The position numbers were made by a program, and so were the translations under genes. A stretch of 64,000 bases of DNA from Candidatus Accumulibacter cognatus (GTDB taxonomy: Bacteria; Pseudomonadota; Gammaproteobacteria; Burkholderiales; Rhodocyclaceae): assembly GCA_013414765.1 (NCBI GenBank), contig CP058708.1:2599553-2663552 (forward strand), in the 5' to 3' direction. Shown piece by piece: positions 4,899 to 56,611 of the stretch. The stretch's first letter is position 1; each line of letters opens with the position of its first letter. Under the pieces are notes generated by a model. The model saw only the letters and a list, made by a program, of their open reading frames with translations, was not told the origin of the DNA and did no database searches.

Positions 4899-4957
4899 TA
4901 ACGGCCACGACTTCTCCAGGCACCCCCGACACACGAGCATCCTTGAATCGTGGCGGT
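4899..4957. repeat. Dispersed hairpin repeat, copy 1 (degenerate)
   Basis: The left arm ACGGCCACGACTTC (4901-4914) is followed by CCAGGCACCCCC and a right arm around 4945-4957. GCCACGA (4904-4910) and TCGTGGC (4948-4954) pair perfectly. The left arm and central CCAGG block are shared with the copies at 33906 and 60931. It lies between the YkgJ-type gene and the EamA gene. Confidence 0.5.
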
Positions 4958-5039
4958 CGACCGGTTTTCGGCTTGAACGCATGCGGCTGATCGATCTCGC
5001 TCTGGCGTTGCTGGTTGTTGTCCGGGGACTTGCGAGCCA

Positions 5040-5930
5040 ATGCGACTGCGTGATCTCGGCGATCTGATTCTGCTGGCAGCGCTTTGGGGAGGCTCCTTTC
5101 TCTTCATGCGTTACGCTGCGCCGGCTTTTGGGCCGCTAGCGCTGATCTGGCTGCGCGTTGCGATTGCTGCGGTGTTTCTGGTGCCTCTGCTGATGCTGCG
5201 TCAGCAGGGCAGGGTGCTGCGCGAGCACGCACCAGGCATCGCGGTGATGGGCCTGTTTGGATCGGCACTACCGTTCGTGCTGATAGCCTGGGCGATGTTG
5301 TCGATCACTGCAGGTCTGGCCTCGATTCTCAATGCCACGGTGCCGATCTTCACCGCGTTGATTGGTGCCCTCTGGTTCCGTGAGCAACTCGGTGCCTGGC
5401 GCAAGACCGGCCTGGCAGTCGGTTTCGCGGGCGTCCTACTGCTCGCCGCCGGCCAGGCCGATTTCAAGCCTGGCGGCAGCGGCTGGGCAATCGTCGCGAT
5501 GTTGCTGGCAACGCTTTCCTATGGCTTGGCCGCCAATCTGACCCGGCAGTTGCTCGGTGGTGTTCCTGCGCTAGTCAGTGCGGCTGGATCGCAACTCGTC
5601 GCTGCCATCATCCTGCTGCCTTTCGCGCTCTGTTTCTGGCCGAGCGTGCCACCCGGCGGCATGGCGTGGGCGGCGGCGATAGTCCTTGGCCTCGGCTGTA
5701 CGGCGCTTGCCTTCCTGCTGTTCTTTCGCCTGATTGCCAACGTCGGCGCTTCGCGTGCCGTGACCGTGACCTTTCTGATCCCGCTCTTCGGGGTTCTCTG
5801 GGGCAGCGCTTTCCTCGGCGAAAGACTTGACGCCAGCATGCTCTCCGGTGGCGTCGTCGTCGTCCTGGGTACCGCGCTGGCCACCGGGGTGCTGCGCCGA
5901 TCGTATCGAGACACCAGTGGATCGTCGTAA
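5040..5930 (+). CDS. EamA/DMT-family transporter
   Basis: 296 residues, almost entirely hydrophobic with about ten predicted membrane helices in two homologous halves of five, the standard architecture of drug/metabolite transporters. Typical blocks include LAALWGGSFLFMRYAAPAFGP at the N-terminus of repeat one and FLIPLFGVLWGSAFLGE in repeat two. It should export or import a small metabolite across the inner membrane; the substrate is not readable. It starts at ATG 5040 and no partner gene is evident. Confidence 0.88.
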   Translation: MRLRDLGDLILLAALWGGSFLFMRYAAPAFGPLALIWLRVAIAAVFLVPLLMLRQQGRVLREHAPGIAVMGLFGSALPFVLIAWAMLSITAGLASILNATVPIFTALIGALWFREQLGAWRKTGLAVGFAGVLLLAAGQADFKPGGSGWAIVAMLLATLSYGLAANLTRQLLGGVPALVSAAGSQLVAAIILLPFALCFWPSVPPGGMAWAAAIVLGLGCTALAFLLFFRLIANVGASRAVTVTFLIPLFGVLWGSAFLGERLDASMLSGGVVVVLGTALATGVLRRSYRDTSGSS

Positions 5931-5990
5931 CGACAAAATCACGGCAAGCGGTTGCTCTTCCTCCGGGCGAGAGACCCGTTCGACCAGCCA

Positions 5991-7628
5991 TCAGGCATGG
6001 AAAATTCCCACTGCCTTCTGAAGATTGCTGGCATGGATTTCGAGTTCCTCGGTCGTTGTCGATGCCTGTTGGAGTGCTGCGTTGTTTTCCTCCACCATCC
6101 GAACGATTTCGTCGAGGTTTCGCGCAATGTCGGCACTAGCGGCGCTTTGTTCGTGTACGGCATTGGCGATTTCGTCAATTCCACGACTGGCATCGGAAAC
6201 CGATTGGTGTGCAGCATCGATGAGGCGTTCAAGTTCTTGCAAGTGAGAGTCACTGTGGCTCAGCGAACTGGTCCCTTCACTCAGTGAACCTTCCACCACG
6301 ACCGCCTGCTGCTCCAGGGTTCTGGTGACACCATCAATACTGTTGGCTGCCGCCGCAGAACGCTCGGCGAGTTTCCTTACCTCGTCCGCGACCACGGCGA
6401 AGCCTCTTCCCTGTTCGCCTGCGCGCGCCGCTTCTATGGCTGCATTGAGGGCGAGTAGGTTGGTCTGATCCGCCAGCTCCTTGACCTGCTGGGTCAGGTT
6501 GGCGATCGAACGCGTGCTTTGGACAAACTCCCCGACGGAGGAATTGATGGCGACGAATGCCTGGCGGACGTTCTCGACTTCCTGCTGCAGACGGTTCAGC
6601 GATGCGTTGCCGGCCTGCGTGTTGTCGAGGCTCTGGCGCGAGGTCTCCTTGACATTCTGCGCGTTGTCAGCAATCGAGGACACACTGACCGCCATCTGTT
6701 CCATGGTCGCGGCAACTGCCGATGCTGCGTCTGCCTGACGTGTCGAACCGTTGGCCACGGTGTGCGAACTGGCCGAGAGTTTCTGCGATGCGTTTGACAC
6801 GGCATCCGCCTCGCCGAGTACCTGGCGCACTGCCTTTTGAAAACTGTCGATCAGTTCGTTGAAGGCCTGTGCGGTCTGGGCGATTTCGTCACGGCCAGCG
6901 GCCTGTACCCGGTGCGTCAAGTCTCCACCCTGGAGATTGGTCGCTGCGGACTTGATCTGCCCGACTGTGGCAACGATCCGTGCCCGTACGATGAAGCTGA
7001 CCCAGAGGGCAAGCACGATCGACAACACCAGCAAGCCGATCAGCAGTTTGATCACCCACTCCGAGGTCGCTCGGGCTTGTTCGTAGGCCTCATTACTCAA
7101 GCGCTGTTCCAGAGCGAGAAGTGCCGTCATCTGGGTGGTGAGCGCGACAAACTCTTTCTCTACCACCGAGATCATGGTTGCGCCCATGCTGTAATCGGTC
7201 AGCGAAACGTCGACGAGATCCATTGATGCCTTGCGATAGATCCCCAGTTGCTTGGTCAGCTTGTCGATAATTTCCTTCTCTTCCGCCGTGAGCGAACCAG
7301 TCTTGCCGATTTCCCCGATCTGAATGCCCATCTCACTCAGTGCGATTTCCTGAGCCCTGCTCATCTCCTTCAGGCGATCAGCGGGAAAGTTTGCCGCTGC
7401 TGCAGAAAGGAGCTGGTAGCTGTCGGCGAAGGTTTCTTGGGATTTGGTGGCGCTCTCGGATGCCAGCTTGAAATTTTGGAAGCGTACTTGGAAGATATTG
7501 CGCAAGGCACTTTGCTGCAGCGTCAGTGCGTAGTAGGAACTGGCTGCCAGCAGCAACAGCAAGGTCAATATGGTCATCGGTGCCAGCAACAGCTTGGCGC
7601 CAATACTCAATCGATCCAGAAACCGCAT
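5991..7628 (-). CDS. Methyl-accepting chemotaxis protein
   Basis: 545 residues. The order is a cytoplasmic N-terminal tail, TM1 (about 12-32), a periplasmic four-helix-bundle-like sensor (about 33-190), TM2 (about 191-212), a HAMP domain and a long MA signalling coiled coil. The conserved hairpin tip [20 protein letters not shown] starts at residue 388 and continues [17 protein letters not shown]. It ends in VGIFHA with no NWETF-type CheR tether. It transmits ligand binding to CheA/CheW. Its start lies 64 bases downstream of a Cache-domain gene on the same strand, a natural candidate partner for ligand capture. A perfect hairpin sits between the two genes. Confidence 0.93.
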
Positions 7629-7645
7629 GTCGACCTCCGCTATCG

Positions 7646-7676
7646 CTTGAATCGCAGTATGGGTCTGCGATTCAAG
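7646..7676 (-). promoter_or_regulatory. Perfect 12-bp intercistronic hairpin
   Basis: CTTGAATCGCAG (7646-7657) and CTGCGATTCAAG (7665-7676) are exact reverse complements around a 7-base loop. It lies after the Cache gene stop and before the chemoreceptor ribosome binding site on the minus strand. There is no T run, so it looks more like a processing or stability element, or a partial terminator that tunes the ratio of the two proteins, than a full terminator. Confidence 0.6.
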
Positions 7677-7692
7677 ATTTCAGACCAGTCTG

Positions 7693-8157
7693 CTATTTGT
7701 AGATTCCGACGCCGAGAAAGCCGTCGGATCCTGGGATCGCGATGACGAAGCTGGATTTGGGTTCGGTCTTTTTCGTCTGCGGATTGGTGAATAGGTAGTC
7801 GACCCAGCCGTTACCCTTGGCCTTCGCCAGATCAGACATTTCCTTGATGAACAATTTTCCGTTGGCGTCCTTCATATCGATCAGACTCTTTCCGACCAGC
7901 GCCTTGTTGCCACCATGGGCTAACACGATTCCATCGGTTTTTACGGCGAAGACATAGAGATCCTTGTCCACCCATTTCGGATCCCGATTCGAAAACTCCT
8001 CAAACGCTTTATCGGCACCCGCCGATTTCACATAAGCAACCGCCTTTTCCGCAAGTGCCTTGGCTTCCGCCGCCGTACCATGTGTCTGCGCGAAGGCAAG
8101 ACCCATGAACAACAGTTGAGAAATCAGAAACAGGGCCATCTTTCTCAGATAGTACAT
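7693..8157 (-). CDS. Periplasmic Cache-domain protein
   Basis: 154 residues. I start it at ATG 8157 because AGGAG lies 7 bases upstream and the protein then begins with a signal peptide (MALFLISQLLFMGLAFAQ). The mature part is a single small Cache domain: an AAEAKALAEKAVAYVK helix, DLYVFAVKTDGIVLAHG, VGKSLIDMKDANGK and the closing YFTNPQ/GSDGFLGVGIYK-type strands. Such stand-alone Cache proteins bind small ligands such as organic acids or amino acids. Its position directly upstream of a chemoreceptor gene suggests it presents a ligand to that receptor (inference). Confidence 0.82.
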   Translation of the reverse strand: MYYLRKMALFLISQLLFMGLAFAQTHGTAAEAKALAEKAVAYVKSAGADKAFEEFSNRDPKWVDKDLYVFAVKTDGIVLAHGGNKALVGKSLIDMKDANGKLFIKEMSDLAKAKGNGWVDYLFTNPQTKKTEPKSSFVIAIPGSDGFLGVGIYK

Positions 8158-48781: not shown

Positions 48782-49015
48782 CTAAGAAATAATGCGAGTG
48801 CACTTGGGATGGCGAAAGAACCCGCGGATGATTTCAGGTGGTTGCTGCAATCGTTCGAGGAAGGCGTGAATGAGGAAGCAGAGGCATGCTTTATCGGTTG
48901 GTTTTTGTTTGGCAACGCGCTCCTTGAGGTTATTCCAGCCCTGTTCGTCGGGGTTGAGCTGAGGCGAATAAGAGGCAGAAAATGCAACTCCAGTCGGCCT
49001 TTCTTTGATTCGACA
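48782..49015 (-). pseudogene. C-terminal relic of an IS630-family transposase
   Basis: Minus-strand translation gives YVESKKGRLELHFLP, then after a one-base deletion YSPQLNPDEQGWNNLKERVA, ending LQQPPEIIRGFFRHPKC. These are the terminal blocks of IS630 transposases, including the catalytic-Glu region. The upstream part is cut off where another IS630-type element begins (49018). Confidence 0.78.
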
Positions 49016-49017
49016 TA

Positions 49018-50091
49018 AGCGCTTCCGGATAGGTCCTCCGACTTATGCGCGTATACTTGCCACCCCCTCCTCCCGAAAGCCTCGCCCTGTCCCGCAAAGC
49101 CAAAACACTGACCCTGACTGCAGAGGAACGCTGCCAGCTCACGAGGATAGACGAGCGGGGCAGCGACTGGCGCGAACGTCGGCGGGCGCGGACCATCCTT
49201 CTCCTCGATCAGGGACTGTCGATCGATGCTGTCGTGACCCAGCAAAAGATTGCAAGGAGACCGTGGCCTGCCACAGGGATGCTTGGCTGGTTCGAGGCTT
49301 TGCCGGACTACGGGACCTGCCGCGCAGTGGCGCCCCGCGCAAGCTATCGGAAACCCTTCGGCAGGTGCTCTGCGCCTGGGCACAGGATGAAGCCTATACG
49401 GCCCCTCAGTTGAGAAGCCGCCTGTCAGAGGAACAGGGTGTACAGGTGTCGGTGTGGCTGGTGCAAAGCGCCTTGAAAGAGCAGGGCTATGTCTGGAAAA
49501 GGACCCGGCACAGCCTAAAAAACGAGACGAAGCCAAATTTCGGGGAGCCCAGGCAGAAATAGAAGAATTGCTTGAAAAATCAAAGCGTGGTGAAATGGGG
49601 CTGGCCTACCTGGATGAAGCGGGCTTTGCGCAGGCGCAGCCCAATCGGAGCGCATGGACCGAAACAGGAGAGGTTCACCTCATTACGGCCGAGCGCGGGA
49701 AGCGCCTGAAGGTACTGGCCGCGTTGATCTCGACGGGTGAGTTTTTCACGGCCAAGTTCTGGGAGACCACGACCGCGGCGCTCTTTGGAGGCTTCCTGGG
49801 TCTCCTTCTGGAAAGCGTCGGCAGACCCTTGACGGTGATTCTCGACAATGCTTCCATCCACAAAGCGAAGGAAATCCAGCCCCTGCTGGCTCTCCGGAAG
49901 CAGAAGGGACTCACGCTTCACTTCTTGCCCCCTGACAGCCCAGAACTGAACCGCGTTGAGAAGCTCTGGCACAAGATGAAGTACGAGTGGATGGCCTTCA
50001 AAGCCAGGAACGCTCCGACACTTGAGGCCAACGTCGACAAAATTCTGGGCGGCTTCGGCTCCGATTATCGGATGACTTTTTGCTGAGCGCT
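49018..50091 (+). mobile_element. IS630-family insertion sequence
   Basis: The element is bounded by AGCGCT inverted ends (49018-49023 and 50086-50091) and flanked on both sides by TA (49016-49017, 50092-50093), the target preference of IS630/Tc1 elements. It is 1,074 bp and contains one transposase in three frames. It sits between an older IS630 relic and an IS1182-type transposase start. Confidence 0.75.
49045..50086 (+). pseudogene. IS630-family transposase, split over three frames
   Basis: Frame one (49045 to about 49250) has the N-terminal helix-turn-helix. The frame moves by -1 near 49250 (HRDAWLVRGFAGLRDLPRSG). It moves by -1 again at the slippery heptamer A-AAA-AAC (49517-49523), entering the catalytic part (LAYLDEAGFAQ, VILDNASIH, HFLPPDSPELNRVEKLWHKM) with the DDE triad. 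The second shift is probably programmed; the first has no obvious slippery site and may be a mutation. Confidence 0.72.
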
Positions 50092-50129: not shown

Positions 50130-50320
50130 ATGACCGAGACTTCTCCGCTTTTTCCCGACGAACCGATGACGCCAGCGAAGCCGACGAGCCAGAGTAGTGC
50201 GAAGGCATCGTCACCAAAGGCGGCAGCGCGCGTACTGATGCCGAACCGCAATCAACTCGAATGGCGGGCGAGTGACCTGGAATCGCTGCTACCGCCTGGG
50301 CACCGGGCCAGGATTGTCTA
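50130..50320 (+). pseudogene. N-terminal fragment of an IS1182-type transposase
   Basis: The fragment ends MPNRNQLEWRASDLESLLPP then GHRARIV, the conserved start of IS1182 transposases. The coding similarity stops at about 50320 and resumes at 55425 with YVERQNLEGLYAGIKVVEGG, the next block of the same family. A 5.1-kb insertion therefore splits this gene after about 63 codons. Confidence 0.78.
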
Positions 50321-50363
50321 GTCTCTTATGACTCAGGTCTTTACATTTCGTGAGCAGATTCTG

Positions 50364-51458
50364 TCAAGGGGTCGCGTGGGCGAGTGCCGGAACGATGCTT
50401 TCTTCCGTGATTCGACAAGCGGCGGCGATGGTAGAGCGGCCAAGGCGGGTAAGGTAATAGCGATAGCCATGAACGACCTTCTTGATGAGACCGAACTGGC
50501 GCAGGCGCCAAAGATAGCGCGTGATGCTGGCCGGCGAGATCTGGCGCAAGAAGGGAGCGAGGTCGGCACGGCGGATACCACGGATGTTGAATTCGGGACG
50601 CTGAAGCGCGCGCAGCAGGGCTTGCTGAGTGGCGTCGAAGAAGTTGAAGCCCTTGAGGCTATGGCCATTGACGATTTGGGGGCTGGTCAGTCGATGCAGG
50701 TTGCGATTGCCGGCGGAGAAGTCGTCCAGTGCGGAGAGATATTCGAGATAGCGGCGATTACACCCGAGCAGGATCTCGCGCAAATCGATGAGGCTGTAGA
50801 TGGTCTTTCGGAGGGGGGCGATCTCGCGCGAGTCGTGACCATCCCGATGTTCCACCTTGCGGTGGTGCTTGAAGAAGGAAACGTTATTGGTCGTGGTCTC
50901 CAGACGCAGCACGCGGTTGAACTTGTCGTACATCTTGACCGATACTTTGCCAAAATGGTGCTTGATGCAAGTGCCCTCGATGCGCGTCGTGAAGCGGCTG
51001 CCGAGTTCCTGCGCCAGTTGCGGTGTGATCTTCTTGCCCAGGAAGTTGGCGACCTGGTCTGCCTTGACCGAGAAGATCGCCTGCCGGGAGAGTTCCTCGT
51101 AGAGCGACTTCAGGATCGTATCGGAGCGGAACACCAGATCGGTCGAGTACTCCACCTGCATCAGGCTCCAGTGATAGGACTGTCCAAAGACCTCGAGGAT
51201 CGGGCAGCACTGCTCGGCGTAGCGGTCCAGGAGAGCGTGCAGGGTGTCCGGCGAGAAGGCGTCCGCGAGTTGCTGAGCCCGCTCCCAATCGGCGATACGG
51301 ATGAAAGCATTGTCCGCCATCGCGTAGTCGATACCTGCCGTTGTCAGCGAGTGTGCCAACCGACTGTGGCCATTGCAGTAGAACTGCAGCCGGAATGGAC
51401 TCCACGTCGGCACGCGCAGGTAGATGAGTCCGAGGGTTTCGTCCATCCAGTAGAAATA
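50364..51458 (-). pseudogene. C-terminal 362 codons of a 502-residue protein split by IS982
   Basis: The fragment reads from YWMDETLGLIYLRVPTWSPF onward. Notable blocks: RLQFYCNGHSRLAHSL, YHWSLMQVEYSTDLVF, RIEGTCIKHHFGKVSVKMYD and VSFFKHHRKVEHRDGH, rich in conserved His, Lys and aromatic residues. The C-terminal third is a winged-helix-like region (ASITRYLWRLRQFGLIKKVV). I do not recognise a named domain. It is continuous in frame with 54919-55341 once the IS is removed. No known transposase motif is visible, although the context suggests mobility. Confidence 0.75.
51451..51458. repeat. 8-bp target duplication of IS982, left copy
   Basis: TAGAAATA here and again at 54920-54927 flank the IS982 element. 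Confidence 0.85.
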
Positions 51459-51461
51459 ACG

Positions 51462-52358
51462 TCAGTTCGGGATAAGTTTTGGGGGTTTGGAGAGCCGGCG
51501 GATGTCCTGCAGCGACAGTCTGGGTTTGTTTGGCATGAGGCAATAGGCGATGAGGCCGGCCAGCAAATTGACGGTGAAATGGATGGGCGAGCGATGGCGG
51601 GTGTGCTCTACCTGACAGAGATTTTTCAGTTCGTCGATGACGGTTTCCACGAGGGATCGCTGCCGTAGCATCGCCTCGTCGAAGGGAGTCAGGGCGACGG
51701 GCTTCATGTTTTTCTTGACCCTGGTCACCAAATCAATGCCAAGGTTCCTCAAGAAGGCAGTCAGCCACTTGGCGATATAGCCCTTGTCGGCATACAGTTT
51801 GCCAAAGAGCCGATTGGCAAAGTCGCACAAGGGCTTGCGGTCATCGACATTGCCAGGCGTGAGTTTGACACCCAGCCACTCGCCCAAGTGATTGATGACC
51901 AGATGGAGTTTGAACCCGAAAAACCAGGCGGTAGAACTCTTGCCCCGCGCCGCCATCCCCTGGAATACCCGGTGAGAAGAAATCCGCAGGTTTTCGCAGA
52001 CGGCGATGGGGGTCGAATCGGCAATCGACACTCCGGAGCACTTGCCCGTGAGCGCCTCGAACAGGGCGGCCAGCGCTATTGCGCAGCGTTGTAGCCACTC
52101 GACACACCGCTGATACGTCGGAAGCTGGGGAAATTCGGCGCGCAGGTGTTGGCACACATGATTCAGATAGAAGGATTTGAACTGCCGGTAGCGAATCTGA
52201 TGGAACAGCACCACCAGAGTCATCAATTCCGGTAGGGAGAGGCTACATTTTCTCGACCGATGACGCTTGCCATCGGTCAGCAGCCGGGCGTTCAGTTGGG
52301 GTTCGATCGCTTTGTAAAAGTCGTCTATCAGGCAGTAAGTCTCGGTAAGATCGTCCAT
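51462..52358 (-). CDS. IS982-family transposase
   Basis: 298 residues from ATG 52358 (GGAGG upstream). IS982 blocks include LPELMTLVVLFHQIRYRQFK, SIADSTPIAVCENLR (first Asp), LYADKGYIAKWL (second Asp) and RSLVETVIDELKN (Glu). The stop codon lies inside the terminal repeat. The gene is intact, but the nested transposon is inserted about 55 bp upstream of its start and separates it from the left end and probably its promoter. Confidence 0.9.
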   Translation of the reverse strand: MDDLTETYCLIDDFYKAIEPQLNARLLTDGKRHRSRKCSLSLPELMTLVVLFHQIRYRQFKSFYLNHVCQHLRAEFPQLPTYQRCVEWLQRCAIALAALFEALTGKCSGVSIADSTPIAVCENLRISSHRVFQGMAARGKSSTAWFFGFKLHLVINHLGEWLGVKLTPGNVDDRKPLCDFANRLFGKLYADKGYIAKWLTAFLRNLGIDLVTRVKKNMKPVALTPFDEAMLRQRSLVETVIDELKNLCQVEHTRHRSPIHFTVNLLAGLIAYCLMPNKPRLSLQDIRRLSKPPKLIPN

Positions 52359-52415
52359 GATGAGAGCCTCCGTGTGACGTGGTTGATCAGGTTGTGCACC
52401 CAACTTGCCAAGACA

Positions 52416-54842
52416 CAGACAACCTGATCTCGGCGCCATGACGTTTGCACGAGTGGCATCACGAATCCGCAGTAGTTCATACGGTTAGCGCGCTGACAAA
52501 GCACTGGCGCGGGTTTATGGCGAGGGGCGTGGCAGATATTGCGAAGATACCGAAAATTGGCGATAGTCCGGTTTTTTGGCCGGCGCCACGCCGATCTTGC
52601 GGGAGAATCGGATGCCCCAACTGCTGTTGCCGATCTTTCCGGATGCCGTGACGCCGATCAAGGACCTGCTGTCTGTCGGGAAGCAGGACGGGCGAGTCGT
52701 GTATTTCCACGGCGTCCTGCCGGTGTTTAGTCATGGGGAAGAGGATTTGGCGACCTTCCGGATGATTACGGCGCAGTTTATCGCGCAGGGTCATCTTCGG
52801 GTGGTGGACGTGTCGCGCGCCTTCGGGGTGCCGGCGTTGAGTGTCAAGCGAGCGTTGAAGCGCTATCGGCAAGAGGGGCCGAAAGGGTTCTACGTTCCGC
52901 CGCGGCGCCGGGGTCCGGCGGTGCTGACGGCAGAGGTGTTGCAGCAGGCGCAGGCCCTGTTCGACGGCGGACAGACGGTCCCGAGCGTTGCGACAGAACT
53001 GGGGATCAAGAGCGACACCCTGTCGAAGGCGGTGCGTGCCGGACGGCTGCATGTTCCGGTGGGGAAAGGGGTCTGCGCGGTCGTCTCGAGCACCAAGAGC
53101 GAGCGGAGCGCACTCGACAGCGCGGCCCCGATGGGGGTTGGGGCGAGCAACGTGGTTGCCCGGGTGGCGGCCAGCGTGGGCGGGCTGAATGCCGTTGCTC
53201 CGCAGTTCCAGGCGGCCGTTGATGTACCGCGTGGCGGGGTGCTGTTCGCGCTGCCTGCCTTATTGGCGGTCGGATTGCTCGACGGGTCGGAGGGTCTTCC
53301 GCTGCCAGCGGGTTACTACGGGATCGACAGTCTGTTGATGTTGATTGCCTTCATGGCCCTGGCGCGACTGGAATCGGTCGAGTCTCTGCGCTCGTGTGCG
53401 CCAGGCGAGTGGGGCAAGTTACTGGGTCTCGATCGGATTCCCGAAGTGCGCACCCTGCGCGAGAAGATAGGGCTCCTGAGCCAGGGCGATCATGCCGAGA
53501 AATGGAGTGCCGACCTGTGTCGGCGCTGGATGGCGGCGGCGCCGGAACAAGCGGGCATCCTCTACGTCGACGCGCATGTGCGGGTGTATTACGGCGAGCA
53601 GACCCAATTGCCGCGCCACTACATCGCGCGGCAGCGGCTGTGCCAGCGTGCGACCGCCGATTACTGGGTCAACGCGATCGACGGGCAGCCCTTCTTCCGG
53701 GTCACGCAATCCGTCGACCCGGGCCTGATCAAGGTTCTTGAAGGCGAGATCCTGCCTCGGCTGGAACGGGACATCCCGGGCCAGCCGAGCGCCGAAGCGC
53801 TCGCGGCCGACCCGCTGCGCCATCGCTTCACCCTGGTCTTCGATCGCGAAGGCTATAGCCCAGAGTTGTTCAAGCGTCTGAAGGCGCGTCGCGTTGCCTG
53901 CCTCTCCTATCGCAAGTACGCCGGCGACGATTGGTCGCCCGAGGAATTCGTCGACGCCACGATCGAACTTCGCCGTGGCCAGCAGGTACGCATGCGACTC
54001 GCCGAACGGGGAACGCTGCTCGGCGGCGTGGTGTGGGTACGCGAGATACGCAAGGTCTGTGACACCGGTCGCCAGGTCGCCCTGATCAGCACGGATTACC
54101 AATCTGGCATAGGGCGCCTGGCGGCCACCCTGTTCGCCAGGTGGTCTCAGGAAAACTTCTTCAAGTATGCGCGTGAACACTTTGCCCTGGACCGCCTGGT
54201 GGATTATCAGATGGAAGAAATTCCTGATACCGCACGCGTTGTCAACCCAGCTCGCCGAACCCTCGACGGCCAGGTTCGCGCGCTGACCAGCAAGCTCAGC
54301 CGCAGGCTCGCCCAATTCGGCGCGCTTAACCTCAACGAGACGATTGAACCAGCGAAAGTCGAGGCCTTTGTCGCGAAAAAAGCCGCTGCCCACGACGAGA
54401 TCGAACATCTGCAGGACGAACTCAAGGCCCTGAAGGAACAACGTAAAGAAACCCCCTCCCATCTCGCCCTCAAGGATTTGCCGGAAGAACAGCAGTTCCG
54501 CCGGCTGAGCACCCACAGCAAGCAGCTACTCGACACGCTCAAGATGATTGCCTATCGCGCGGAAACGGCCATGGCCAACGTCCTGGCACCGCTTCTCTCG
54601 CGCCCGGACGAGGCACGCAGCTTGCTGCGCGCGATCTACACGACCGAAGCGGACTTGCTGCCCGATCCTAACGCCGGCACCCTGACCGTACGCCTCCACC
54701 ACATGGCCAATGGCGTGTCGGACCGCGCCGTCCGCAAACTCTGTGACGAGTTGAACTCTACCAAGACGCTCTTCCCACGCTCCAACCTCCGCCTGATTCT
54801 GCAACTCGGTACGTCGCAAAATCCGTGAGATCAGGTTGTCTG
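52416..54842 (+). mobile_element. 2.4-kb transposon with 16-bp perfect ends
   Basis: CAGACAACCTGATCTC (52416-52431) is exactly inverted at 54827-54842. AGACA flanks both sides (52411-52415 and 54843-54847), a 5-bp target duplication. The element contains a single large transposase gene and is inserted in the leader of the IS982 transposase. Confidence 0.9.
52612..54828 (+). CDS. Large DDE-type transposase of the nested transposon
   Basis: 738 residues from ATG 52612 (GGGAG upstream). The N-terminus holds two helix-turn-helix regions (VVDVSRAFGVPALSVKRALK, SVATELGIKSDTLSKAVRAG). An RNase-H-like core follows with Asp in GILYVDAHVRVYYG, Asp in TLVFDREGYSPELF and Glu in WSQENFFKYAREHFALDRLV. The C-terminal 180 residues form a coiled coil (HDEIEHLQDELKALKEQR). 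The stop codon lies next to the right terminal repeat. I recognise the protein type from other bacteria, but I cannot assign it to a named IS family with confidence. Confidence 0.82.
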   Translation: MPQLLLPIFPDAVTPIKDLLSVGKQDGRVVYFHGVLPVFSHGEEDLATFRMITAQFIAQGHLRVVDVSRAFGVPALSVKRALKRYRQEGPKGFYVPPRRRGPAVLTAEVLQQAQALFDGGQTVPSVATELGIKSDTLSKAVRAGRLHVPVGKGVCAVVSSTKSERSALDSAAPMGVGASNVVARVAASVGGLNAVAPQFQAAVDVPRGGVLFALPALLAVGLLDGSEGLPLPAGYYGIDSLLMLIAFMALARLESVESLRSCAPGEWGKLLGLDRIPEVRTLREKIGLLSQGDHAEKWSADLCRRWMAAAPEQAGILYVDAHVRVYYGEQTQLPRHYIARQRLCQRATADYWVNAIDGQPFFRVTQSVDPGLIKVLEGEILPRLERDIPGQPSAEALAADPLRHRFTLVFDREGYSPELFKRLKARRVACLSYRKYAGDDWSPEEFVDATIELRRGQQVRMRLAERGTLLGGVVWVREIRKVCDTGRQVALISTDYQSGIGRLAATLFARWSQENFFKYAREHFALDRLVDYQMEEIPDTARVVNPARRTLDGQVRALTSKLSRRLAQFGALNLNETIEPAKVEAFVAKKAAAHDEIEHLQDELKALKEQRKETPSHLALKDLPEEQQFRRLSTHSKQLLDTLKMIAYRAETAMANVLAPLLSRPDEARSLLRAIYTTEADLLPDPNAGTLTVRLHHMANGVSDRAVRKLCDELNSTKTLFPRSNLRLILQLGTSQNP

Positions 54843-54918
54843 AGACAGCATTCCTGCTCATCCGTTTCACATCAACCTCTTAGCGCTACATTTCGAGCTT
54901 CCTTATCCCGAACTGACG

Positions 54919-55341
54919 TTAGAAATAGTAGTGCAGGCACTTGCCCGAGGTGTGGCGCAGAAAGGTTGGGTGACTTTGCTTGTCGTGCCAGGGTTCGTAG
55001 GCGTCGCAGGCTTCCATGGCGGAGAGCACATGCACCAGTCCTGGATGATCCCCACGCTCCTTGAGCACCGCGGCAACGAGGTCTTCCTTGCGGATCTGCG
55101 CCTTGGCAACGTGCTCGATTCGCGCTCCCTGCGCGGTCGCCAGAGCCAGTGCGGCTTCACGAATGCGGTCACGCAGCGGCTCGGCAAAGCGCGGATAGTC
55201 AAAAATTCGAATGTGCCTGGCATTGAGAAAACTCGTCATCCCCGCCGCGTAGCACGCACCGGGCAACGTCCCCGTAATCACGATCCGGTCGTAGCAGGAG
55301 AGCGTTCCTGCAAGCCGGTCGTGATATCGATCCGTCAGCAT
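54919..55341 (-). pseudogene. N-terminal 140 codons of the 502-residue split protein
   Basis: The fragment starts at MLTDRYHDRLAGTLSCYDRI and ends GKCLHYYF at the IS982 boundary. Removing the IS982 and one TAGAAATA copy joins it as ..KCLHYYFYWMDETLG.., exactly in frame with the C-terminal fragment. It contains a DRIVITGTLPGACYAAGMTS segment and an FDYPRFAEPLRDRIREAA helix. No known domain was recognised. Confidence 0.75.
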
Positions 55342-55424
55342 CTATGTCATGGCCGCCTCCGATTACTTGCTAAGGCTATGACCAAAACCTTGACCTGTTT
55401 GGTTCCGGCTTCGCCGGCTTAGGG

Positions 55425-56611
55425 GTATGTTGAGCGGCAGAACCTGGAAGGGCTGTATGCCGGAATCAAAGTGGTTGAGGGCGGAGTAGGACGAGCGGCA
55501 ATTGCGCCGGAGATTCTGTACGCTCTGTGGCTGTACGCCACCCTGGAAGGCGTCGGCAGTGCGCGTACGCTGGCCCGGTTGACGCCAAGCGCATGACGCC
55601 TACCGCTGGCTCTGTGGTGGTGTGCCAGTCAATGACCACCCCCTCGCCGATTTTCGCAGCCACCCAGGGGACGCCCTGGACGACCTGCTGACCGACCACG
55701 TCGCGAGTCTGATGGCCGCGTGCCGTCAAGCTCAAGGCGGCGGCGCAGGACGGGATGCGCGTACGAGCGAGTGAGGGAGCCGCCTCGTTCCGGCGAGAAG
55801 AGAAGCTCAAAGCGTGCCTCGAAGTGGCGCGGGAGCAGGTGAGCCGCCTCAAGGCGCCAGTGGATGACGACCCGGTCGGCGAAACGGCGCGCAAGCAAGC
55901 CGCACAGCGGCGTGCGGCGGAGGAACGGGAAGTGCGCATTGAAGCCGCCTTGGCTCGGCTGCCTGAGCGGGCGGCGATCAAGCAGGGTCAAGGAAAGGAC
56001 CCGAAGGAAGCGCGTGCCTCGACCACCGATGCTGACGCCACGGTCATGAAGAGGGGGGATGGGGGATTTCAGCCGGCGTTCAACTTTCAGTACGCCACCG
56101 ACATCGAAAGTCAGGTGATCATCGGTGTGGAGGTGGTGACCGCCGGCAGCGATCAGGGACAGAGGTCACCCATGGTTGAGCAGGTCGGCGAACGCTGTGG
56201 TCAGACCCCGGAGAGTTGGCGGGTCGATGGCGGCTATCCTGGCATGGGCAACTCGACGCGGTGGCTGGGGAGACCACCGTCTATGCGCCCGTGCCGAAGA
56301 CTAAAGACCCGGCAGTCGACGTTCACCAAGCGAAGGCAAAGGACAGCCCGGCGGTGGCTAAATGGCGGGAACGTATGGGAAGCGATGAGGCCAAGGCGCT
56401 CTACAAGGATCGCTCGGCGACTGTCGAATGGGTGAATGCGCCGGCACGCAACCGCAGCCTGAAGGGCTGACTGGTTCGCGGGCTGAAGAAAGTCAAGGGC
56501 GTCGCGCTGCTGTTCGCACTGGCGCACAACCTAATGCGCGCCGCTCCGCTCGCCCCCGAACTGGTCGGCATAGGGACAGGAACGTCCGCAGTACCGCCAA
56601 TGGCAGGGTAA
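55425..56611 (+). pseudogene. C-terminal part of the IS1182-type transposase, decayed
   Basis: The similarity runs through VERQNLEGLYAGIKVVEGG, ALWLYATLEGVGSARTLARL, DAYRWLCGGVPVN, LDDLLTDHVASLMAA, RVRASEGAASFRREEK, STTDADATVMKRGDGGFQPA and VAKWRERMGSDEAKALYKD, ending LFALAHNLMRA. It crosses at least three frameshifts (about 55597, 55722 and 56230) and one internal stop (56470). It is the continuation of the fragment at 50130-50320. Confidence 0.82.

Follow-up and report, generated by a model that had tools for sequence, protein, structure and literature searches.

A probable new class of single-gene insertion sequence with a candidate Rep_trans-like transposase in Candidatus Accumulibacter cognatus

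A 64,000-nucleotide stretch of the Candidatus Accumulibacter cognatus genome (contig CP058708.1, positions 2,599,553 to 2,663,552; hereafter the window) carries a 1,635-bp insertion sequence (IS) that is likely to belong to a new class: it holds a single gene, and the encoded protein of about 505 residues is, judging from its predicted structure and conserved motifs, quite likely a Rep_trans-like transposase. That a new and mobile IS family is present can be taken as close to certain from the genome comparisons. Mobility follows from the presence of sharp-ended, near-identical copies at a number of loci, from unsplit targets and from short copies that have both ends but lack the gene; in the manner of insertion sequences, the element is small, contains a mobility gene only, has precise ends and occurs in several copies. 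An initial annotation, made from the letters of the window, had proposed an undescribed single-gene mobile element at this place, and the copies and unsplit targets support it; no mechanism was given there, and the Rep_trans-like assignment is an addition of the present analysis.

Results

Copies, size and spread of the element

In the host genome (one contig of 5.17 Mb), nine places match the 360-residue half of the window protein: the window copy itself, three intact genes (with open frames 509 codons long and a protein of 505 residues), a 76% copy with a TAG codon, one split copy that accounts for two places, a distant 30% match and a remnant. Copies L018-L021 have both ends as in the window copy, in unrelated flanks. 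The intact copies L018-L020 are continuous (GKCLHYYFYWMDETLG) across the join of the two minus-strand fragments that the initial annotation had assembled into one gene, so that the gene is real and its reconstruction unnecessary. The third codon is CAG in L018 and TAG in the window copy, which fits the 502 codons counted in the window against 505 in L018. The split copy (L022) has the same ends and IS1182-like sequence on one side. At this locus (4927-7992) the element apparently occupies the same position in an IS1182-like gene as in the window, the other flank is unrelated and the gene is split by an insertion; one target may have been chosen twice, or the locus may be a rearranged descendant.

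Other genomes, too, hold what the initial annotation had asked for: near-identical copies, sharply bounded and at different places. Homologues lie at many loci rather than at one conserved chromosomal position. A genome of the same genus (G006) has 15 matching places, many ending at contig ends, as multi-copy repeats do; a single Rhodocyclaceae contig holds three copies, 99.8-100% identical over 1,625-1,635 bp; and species genomes, when scanned, yielded 71 related loci. The distribution is patchy: at E up to 0.001 the protein is matched in 14 of 61 related genomes, and at E up to 1e-10 matches occur in 10 of the 398 Pseudomonadota genomes sampled. It is also matched in 11 plasmid records, where the relatives sit inside large plasmids and are annotated as hypothetical proteins or, once, as an ArsR regulator. 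The latter is a 65%-identical relative on Paraburkholderia plasmid pOLGA1 (L205, 3001-4515, ArsR family transcriptional regulator). A 24%-identical relative on a Mycobacterium riyadhense plasmid (L206, 2947-4563) adjoins IS4 transposases, is found at four places in the record and represents an actinobacterial branch. No phage record matches the protein, and none of 46 candidate stretches from viral contigs is a relative.

The window copy measures 1,635 bp once a 3,461-bp insert and one 8-bp repeat are removed, in agreement with the earlier estimate of about 1.6 kb; the L010-L012 elements have the same length. Among 24 elements with both ends recognised (the search pattern demanded that CT be preceded by C and that the 3' end be one of ten finishing in CTA or TTA), 23 are 1,623-1,641 bp long and one is 1,693 bp.

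Target sites with and without the element

The IS1182 gene that holds the window copy has an unsplit counterpart in the host genome (L120, 1300-2900; G000:C1:4180134-4181210), about 99% identical to it, showing that the two IS1182 halves come from one element and not from two, and that the new gene does lie within IS1182. This unsplit copy has a single CTA at the site, where in the window CTA borders the element on both sides. Its reading frame also contains a TAG precisely at the point of insertion, so that this IS1182 frame may already have been dead; the site may be a pre-insertion allele, or else an excision product or scar of the new element.

L018 lies in a different IS, of which the host genome has many copies at 79-85%; the flanks of L018, joined through one CTA, align gapless with the best 4 of 11 paralogues, which have CCA there. 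L020 lies in a gene that we take to be IS21 istA. Compared with nine loci spanning the site, its joined flanks read CT-AAG against CT[GC]AAG, one base shorter than eight of the nine, the ninth having a gap a few bases away. Unsplit targets, as foreseen in the initial annotation, are thus found at three loci, exactly at two of them and with an offset of one base at the third.

Element ends and the 5' hairpin

In gene orientation, most of the copies listed start with CCTAAGCCGGnnnAGCCGGAACCAAA and finish with TAAGAGACTA; variants occur. The ends carry CTA, usually as CCTAA. A C precedes CT[AG] at all of 46 distinct 5' junctions (44 CTA, 2 CTG), these being distinct in the 12 bases before the end, including one short copy and found with a pattern that did not demand the preceding C. 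In 21 of the 24 elements CTA is present at both ends, and the 3' end is followed by A in 19 elements, by G in four and by T in one. When folded as single-stranded DNA, two versions of the 5' end form a hairpin (z -2.6 and -2.7; 2 and 3 of 200 shuffles as good), with the CTA site beside the stem and not in the loop. Allowing up to 2 mismatches, the 5' motif was detected in 10 of the 61 related genomes; the reversed control had no match in any of them. A search of 300 genomes for a circle or tandem junction gave two matches with three mismatches, which we read as ordinary 5' ends, and the reversed control gave one match.

Distant subfamilies and gene-less copies

Two distant subfamilies also have recognisable ends. 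At 28% identity (L029, L030, L031, L039) the ends are sharp, with TAGCGCGGCCGTTGGCCGCAACCAAAAGG at the 5' end of two and CATAG at the 3' end of three; at 23-24% (L042, L035, L036) three elements start with CTAGGCTTTTCCCAAGACTGCGCTTGGGAAAAG and two finish with GCGCCTA. Their 5' hairpins score z -2.0 (7 of 200 shuffles as good) and -5.0 (0 of 200). Three divergent subfamilies thus keep one plan: trinucleotide, hairpin, one gene and the same trinucleotide again. Upstream of the gene of a fourth relative (L033), an inverted repeat can be made out by eye.

Short copies of 140-198 bp lack the gene. In one genome without a protein match (G033), 5' and 3' ends lie 198 and 140 bp apart at two places; one of these copies finishes with CTG and the other starts with CGA instead of CTA, and a further short copy is 91% identical to one of the two over 194 bp. 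L054 has a second, short copy of which 32 and 31 bp match the ends of its own full-length element at 94% and 90%.

Predicted fold and candidate active site

The protein consists of a core (residues 1-384) and a C-terminal MarR-like winged helix. Searches of Pfam, NCBIfam, PHROGs, PADLOC and PDB sequences gave a convincing match to the winged helix only, and together with Foldseek these confirm the winged-helix-like end first seen in the window. (Pfam results for the 40 family members concern the best 25 of 33 families, those of a second family search the best 25 of 38.) In NCBIfam, neither the two window fragments nor the 40 members (16 families) match a transposase model, and no DDE family is found in Pfam for the fragments or among the families considered for the members. 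DDE folds are also absent from the 50 Foldseek matches listed for the full-length and core models. Nor is there an HUH (His-hydrophobic-His) pair: of the columns conserved in 38 or more of the 40 members, only that of H140 is a His. PF02486, the Rep_trans family, is not among these best 25 families and has no match (E up to 0.001) in the host genome with its three intact copies; the protein is therefore not filed as a PF02486 member. One member of the 40 matched phrog_270 (replication initiation protein) at E 0.067, which we did not use as evidence.

AlphaFold2 models were confident by predicted local distance difference test (pLDDT) and predicted template modelling score (pTM), both at full length (40 members; pLDDT 90.5, pTM 0.84) and for the core (35 members; pLDDT 91.9, pTM 0.89). 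With the full-length model, Foldseek returned mainly MarR-type winged helices and miscellaneous folds, and TATA-binding proteins (TBPs) weakly. With the core, the four chains of the Rep_trans initiator RepSTK1 (4cij) took ranks 1-4 of 350,542 PDB chains (probability 0.66-0.77), followed by TBPs (1ais, probability 0.96; 1mp9, 0.90). A search of viral structures (BFVD) had the viral TBP A0A2N9QVX7 at rank 4 and an Inoviridae sp. protein at rank 11. The relation to Rep_trans had been proposed from conserved QxE, KxYxK and RxE ahead of the core fold search.

Rep_trans proteins have a sheet of TBP topology in two five-strand modules, and an active site of D46, R140xD142xAxD146, R189xY191xK193 and R212xE214 with a metal on D46, D142 and E214, according to the available text of PMC4797284. 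By DSSP of two models, the core here has a TBP-like curved sheet with strand order 1, 2-5, 6, 8-11, in agreement with that description of RepSTK1 as far as it was available. D21 lies on strand 13-28, Q242xE244xSxD248 on 237-251, K316xY318xK320 on 313-320 and R326xE328 on 324-331, so that the order D21, QxE244, KxY318xK, RxE328 is that of Rep_trans: D, RxD, RxYxK, RxE (PMC4797284, same text). By sequence and strand order, D21, E244 (Glu for Asp) and E328 fill the positions of the metal ligands as putative ligands, and Y318, in KxYxK with Lys for Arg, is the putative catalytic tyrosine. Conservation among 40 members is high (D21 40, E244 39, E328 38, K316 40, Y318 40, K320 39). A regular expression for these motifs, composed after seeing the family, matches 35 of 40 (non-independent) members and 9 of 13 Rep_trans sequences, against 5 of 312 open reading frames (ORFs) from the loci, after removal of those with NGH, NGR, RIEG or K[MIVL]YDK, and 7 of 2,650 shuffled sequences. 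Two scans of viral contigs yielded no further Rep_trans sequences.

Nested elements at the window locus

Four mobile elements are nested at this locus: a Transposase_29 IS in an IS982, in the new element, in IS1182 (Table 1). The initial annotation had taken the insert in the gene for an IS982 with its repeat. IS982 and the TAGAAATA repeats are there, yet the insert is made up of two nested ISs. The Transposase_29 IS is complete, with identical 16-bp inverted ends and AGACA at 52411-52415 and 54843-54847; the IS982 copies L002 and L024 are without it. The match of the L002 copy (about 1410-2450) to the window runs on at either side into the first bases of the TAGAAATA repeats, a hint that this IS982 may prefer certain targets. 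Just upstream of IS1182, at 49005-50086, are transposase pieces with HTH_32 and DDE_3 domains, presumably IS630-like.

Table 1. Coordinates of the nested elements and their parts in the window.
Feature	Position	Strand	Evidence
New element, window copy	50319..55422	-	ends common to L018-L020 at 99.2-99.9% identity, flanks different
3' terminal CTA of new element (TAG on +)	50319..50321	-	junction comparison; 3' end TAAGAGACTA also in L018-L020
C-terminal 360 codons of transposase candidate	50364..51446	-	QxE244, KxY318xK, RxE328 strands and winged helix
N-terminal 140 codons of transposase candidate, with D21	54919..55341	-	same protein unbroken in L018
5' terminal hairpin region, AGCCGGCGAAGCCGGAACCAAA in gene orientation	55398..55419	-	5' end conserved at 46 distinct junctions; DNA fold z -2.6
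5' terminal CTA of new element	55420..55422	-	junction comparison; preceding base (55423) is C
TAGAAATA, IS982 target repeat, copy 1	51451..51458		boundary comparison
TAGAAATA, IS982 target repeat, copy 2	54920..54927		boundary comparison
IS982 interrupting gene of new element	51459..54919		transposase ORF 51462-52439 minus; NF033520 E 9.7e-74
Nested Transposase_29 (PF21804) IS, 2,427 bp	52416..54842	+	750-aa transposase 52576-54828, PF21804 E 1.2e-180
IS1182 transposase gene, 5' part, target of new element	50130..50318	+	99% match to unsplit copy L120
Same IS1182, 3' part (disabled copy)	55426..56500	+	99% identical to L120

Discussion

Based on the predicted structure and the motifs, we read the core of the protein as a Rep_trans-like (TBP-fold) endonuclease, and we lean towards a single-strand mechanism at CT'A. 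In such a mechanism, the protein would recognise the 5'-end hairpin, D21, E244 and E328 would serve as ligands of a metal ion and Y318 as the nucleophile at CT'A; one strand would be cut at CT'A beside the hairpin and at the CT'A of the 3' end. The ends would then be joined into a single-stranded circle with a junction that recreates CT'AA, the circle would insert at a CCTAA-like site, and host synthesis would make the second strand. Neither inverted repeats nor a conventional target duplication would be expected. According to the available part of PMC9371924, the nick made by MOBT relaxases and by Rep_trans initiators falls in a conserved CT'AA, which lies in the loop of a GC-rich hairpin. 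The CCTAA at the insertion site and the CTAA recreated when 3' and 5' ends are joined would thus be the substrate for an enzyme of this kind, and the ends had been set by genome comparison before that literature was compared. After the fold, this agreement is the strongest argument for the inferred mechanism; here, though, the site lies beside the stem and not in the loop. It is fairly probable that the elements form a new prokaryotic transposon superfamily, moving in single-stranded form by means of a tyrosine enzyme of Rep_trans fold (TBP-like, non-HUH). Such a superfamily would comprise several deep subfamilies, each with its own hairpin and a CTA- or TAG-type site, as well as short derivatives mobilised in trans; its transposase would be a class apart from the DDE, HUH, serine, tyrosine and Cas1 enzymes.

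A number of observations weigh against this reading. For the enzyme, the R and D of motif I are replaced by Q and E, and in the aligned members motif II (T/SxY/ExG) and the E of YxKxxE have no equivalent at that spacing. The 4cij matches have E-values of 4.6e-3 to 7.7e-3, above 1e-3, with target TM-scores of 0.27-0.29, and 4cij is not among the 50 matches listed for the full-length model. Profile comparison with four Rep_trans sequences gave a probability of 0.1; hhalign against 13 gave a score of 14.3, with 17 of 100 column shuffles as good, the loose alignment having motifs I, III and IV in register. For the mechanism, four 3' ends were folded and formed no hairpin beyond shuffles, the 5' hairpin of subfamily B is weak, 7 of 200 shuffles equalling it, and the 300 genomes yielded neither a circle nor a tandem junction. 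The empty site has the exact length at two of three loci and is one base off at the third (L020), and diverged homologues read CCA or CT[GC]A where the joined site reads CTA, so that the CTA may come partly from the element. Finally, the trinucleotides at the two ends are unequal in 3 of 24 elements, which would suit site recognition better than duplication but could be due to mutation.

Given these weak scores, the core of a genuine new IS could be unrelated to Rep_trans, its TBP-like sheet being a coincidence and its catalytic residues others, for example H140, Y144 and K88; together with N170 and N191, these are conserved as well as the proposed active site, and the Foldseek E-values are marginal and the profile comparison non-significant. 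We regard this as unlikely because all four chains of RepSTK1 are the top match, the core agrees with it in strand order and in active-site residues, and the ends of the element carry the sequence published as nic site; the TBP-fold matches in BFVD moreover mirror those reported for Rep-Arvir (PMC13107129, in its available part). Conventional cut-and-paste transposition with a 3-bp CTA target duplication, for which CTA at both ends of 21 of 24 elements and the single CTA of one unsplit target would speak, is quite improbable: the ends are not inverted copies of each other, the CCTA site is nearly invariant and accompanied by a 5' hairpin, and the Pfam matches listed include no DDE family.

Two further explanations question the role of the gene or the nature of the element. 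The 505-residue protein might be a passenger or regulator of an element moved in trans by another transposase, as the C-terminal winged helix, the gene-less short copies and the annotation of one relative as an ArsR family regulator could suggest; yet the 24 measured elements leave no room for another sizeable gene, and in subfamilies at 23-28% identity the gene is accompanied each time by a hairpin end particular to that subfamily, making a passenger very improbable. Least credible is an integrated rolling-circle plasmid or a phage remnant rather than a transposon. The Rep-like core and the relatives on 11 plasmid records point that way, though the latter lie within large plasmids; against it stand the lack of matches in phage records and in the 46 viral-contig stretches, the precise ends and a size fixed at 1.62-1.64 kb in 23 of 24 elements.

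In the literature titles and abstract openings listed, with most subscription journals outside coverage, we found no description of a Rep_trans transposase or of this family. Newness was judged against Pfam, NCBIfam and the literature, and a description may already exist outside these sources, ISfinder included. In the available text of PMC5714925, transposases are named under the HUH enzymes only, and there, as in that of PMC13107129, the roles named for the Rep_trans type are replication and conjugation only. Plasmid Reps, relaxases and transposases all include kin of the HUH rolling-circle initiators; for the unrelated Rep_trans type, a transposase like the one proposed here would close the gap, meaning that single-strand transposition would have arisen with a second fold. 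With 1.6 kb and a defined target, the element is readily testable, and a role is offered for a family annotated on plasmids as hypothetical proteins or a regulator.

The element shares features with several known systems. Like the IS200/IS605 elements (Y1 HUH transposases, IS608 among them), it is short and without inverted repeats, with a hairpin beside the putative cleavage site and a short target sequence 5' of the element; unlike them, it has no conserved HUH pair and its hairpin was found at the 5' end only. With IS91/ISCR and Helitrons (Y2 HUH) it would have in common a transposase related to rolling-circle initiators and the absence of inverted or direct repeats (PMC5714925, available part), whereas the enzyme fold is unrelated and the ends and target are different. 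On the enzyme side, it resembles the Rep_trans initiators (PF02486; pT181/pC221 Rep, RepSTK1 PDB 4CIJ) in the two-module TBP-like sheet, the D / RxD / RxYxK / RxE order and, putatively, a CT'AA site near a GC hairpin. Those proteins start plasmid or phage replication, while the gene here stands alone in an insertion sequence, and its product differs in the longer first module, the missing motif II and the lack of a PF02486 match. MOBT relaxases (NicK of ICEBs1, RelSt3 of ICESt3) are, in the sources as available, Rep_trans-related tyrosine enzymes with a helix-turn-helix domain and a CT'AA nic site; they serve conjugation of large elements, not insertion, and their nic site is in the hairpin loop. 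Rep-Arvir (RepSNJ2), in the available part of PMC13107129, gave a similarly weak Foldseek picture, with A0A2N9QVX7 named, and it has a Rep_trans-like catalytic domain of TBP fold and, after it, a MarR-like winged helix, an arrangement that the protein here would share; it differs in replicating archaeal viruses and plasmids, in having an extra C-terminal domain and in not belonging to a transposon.

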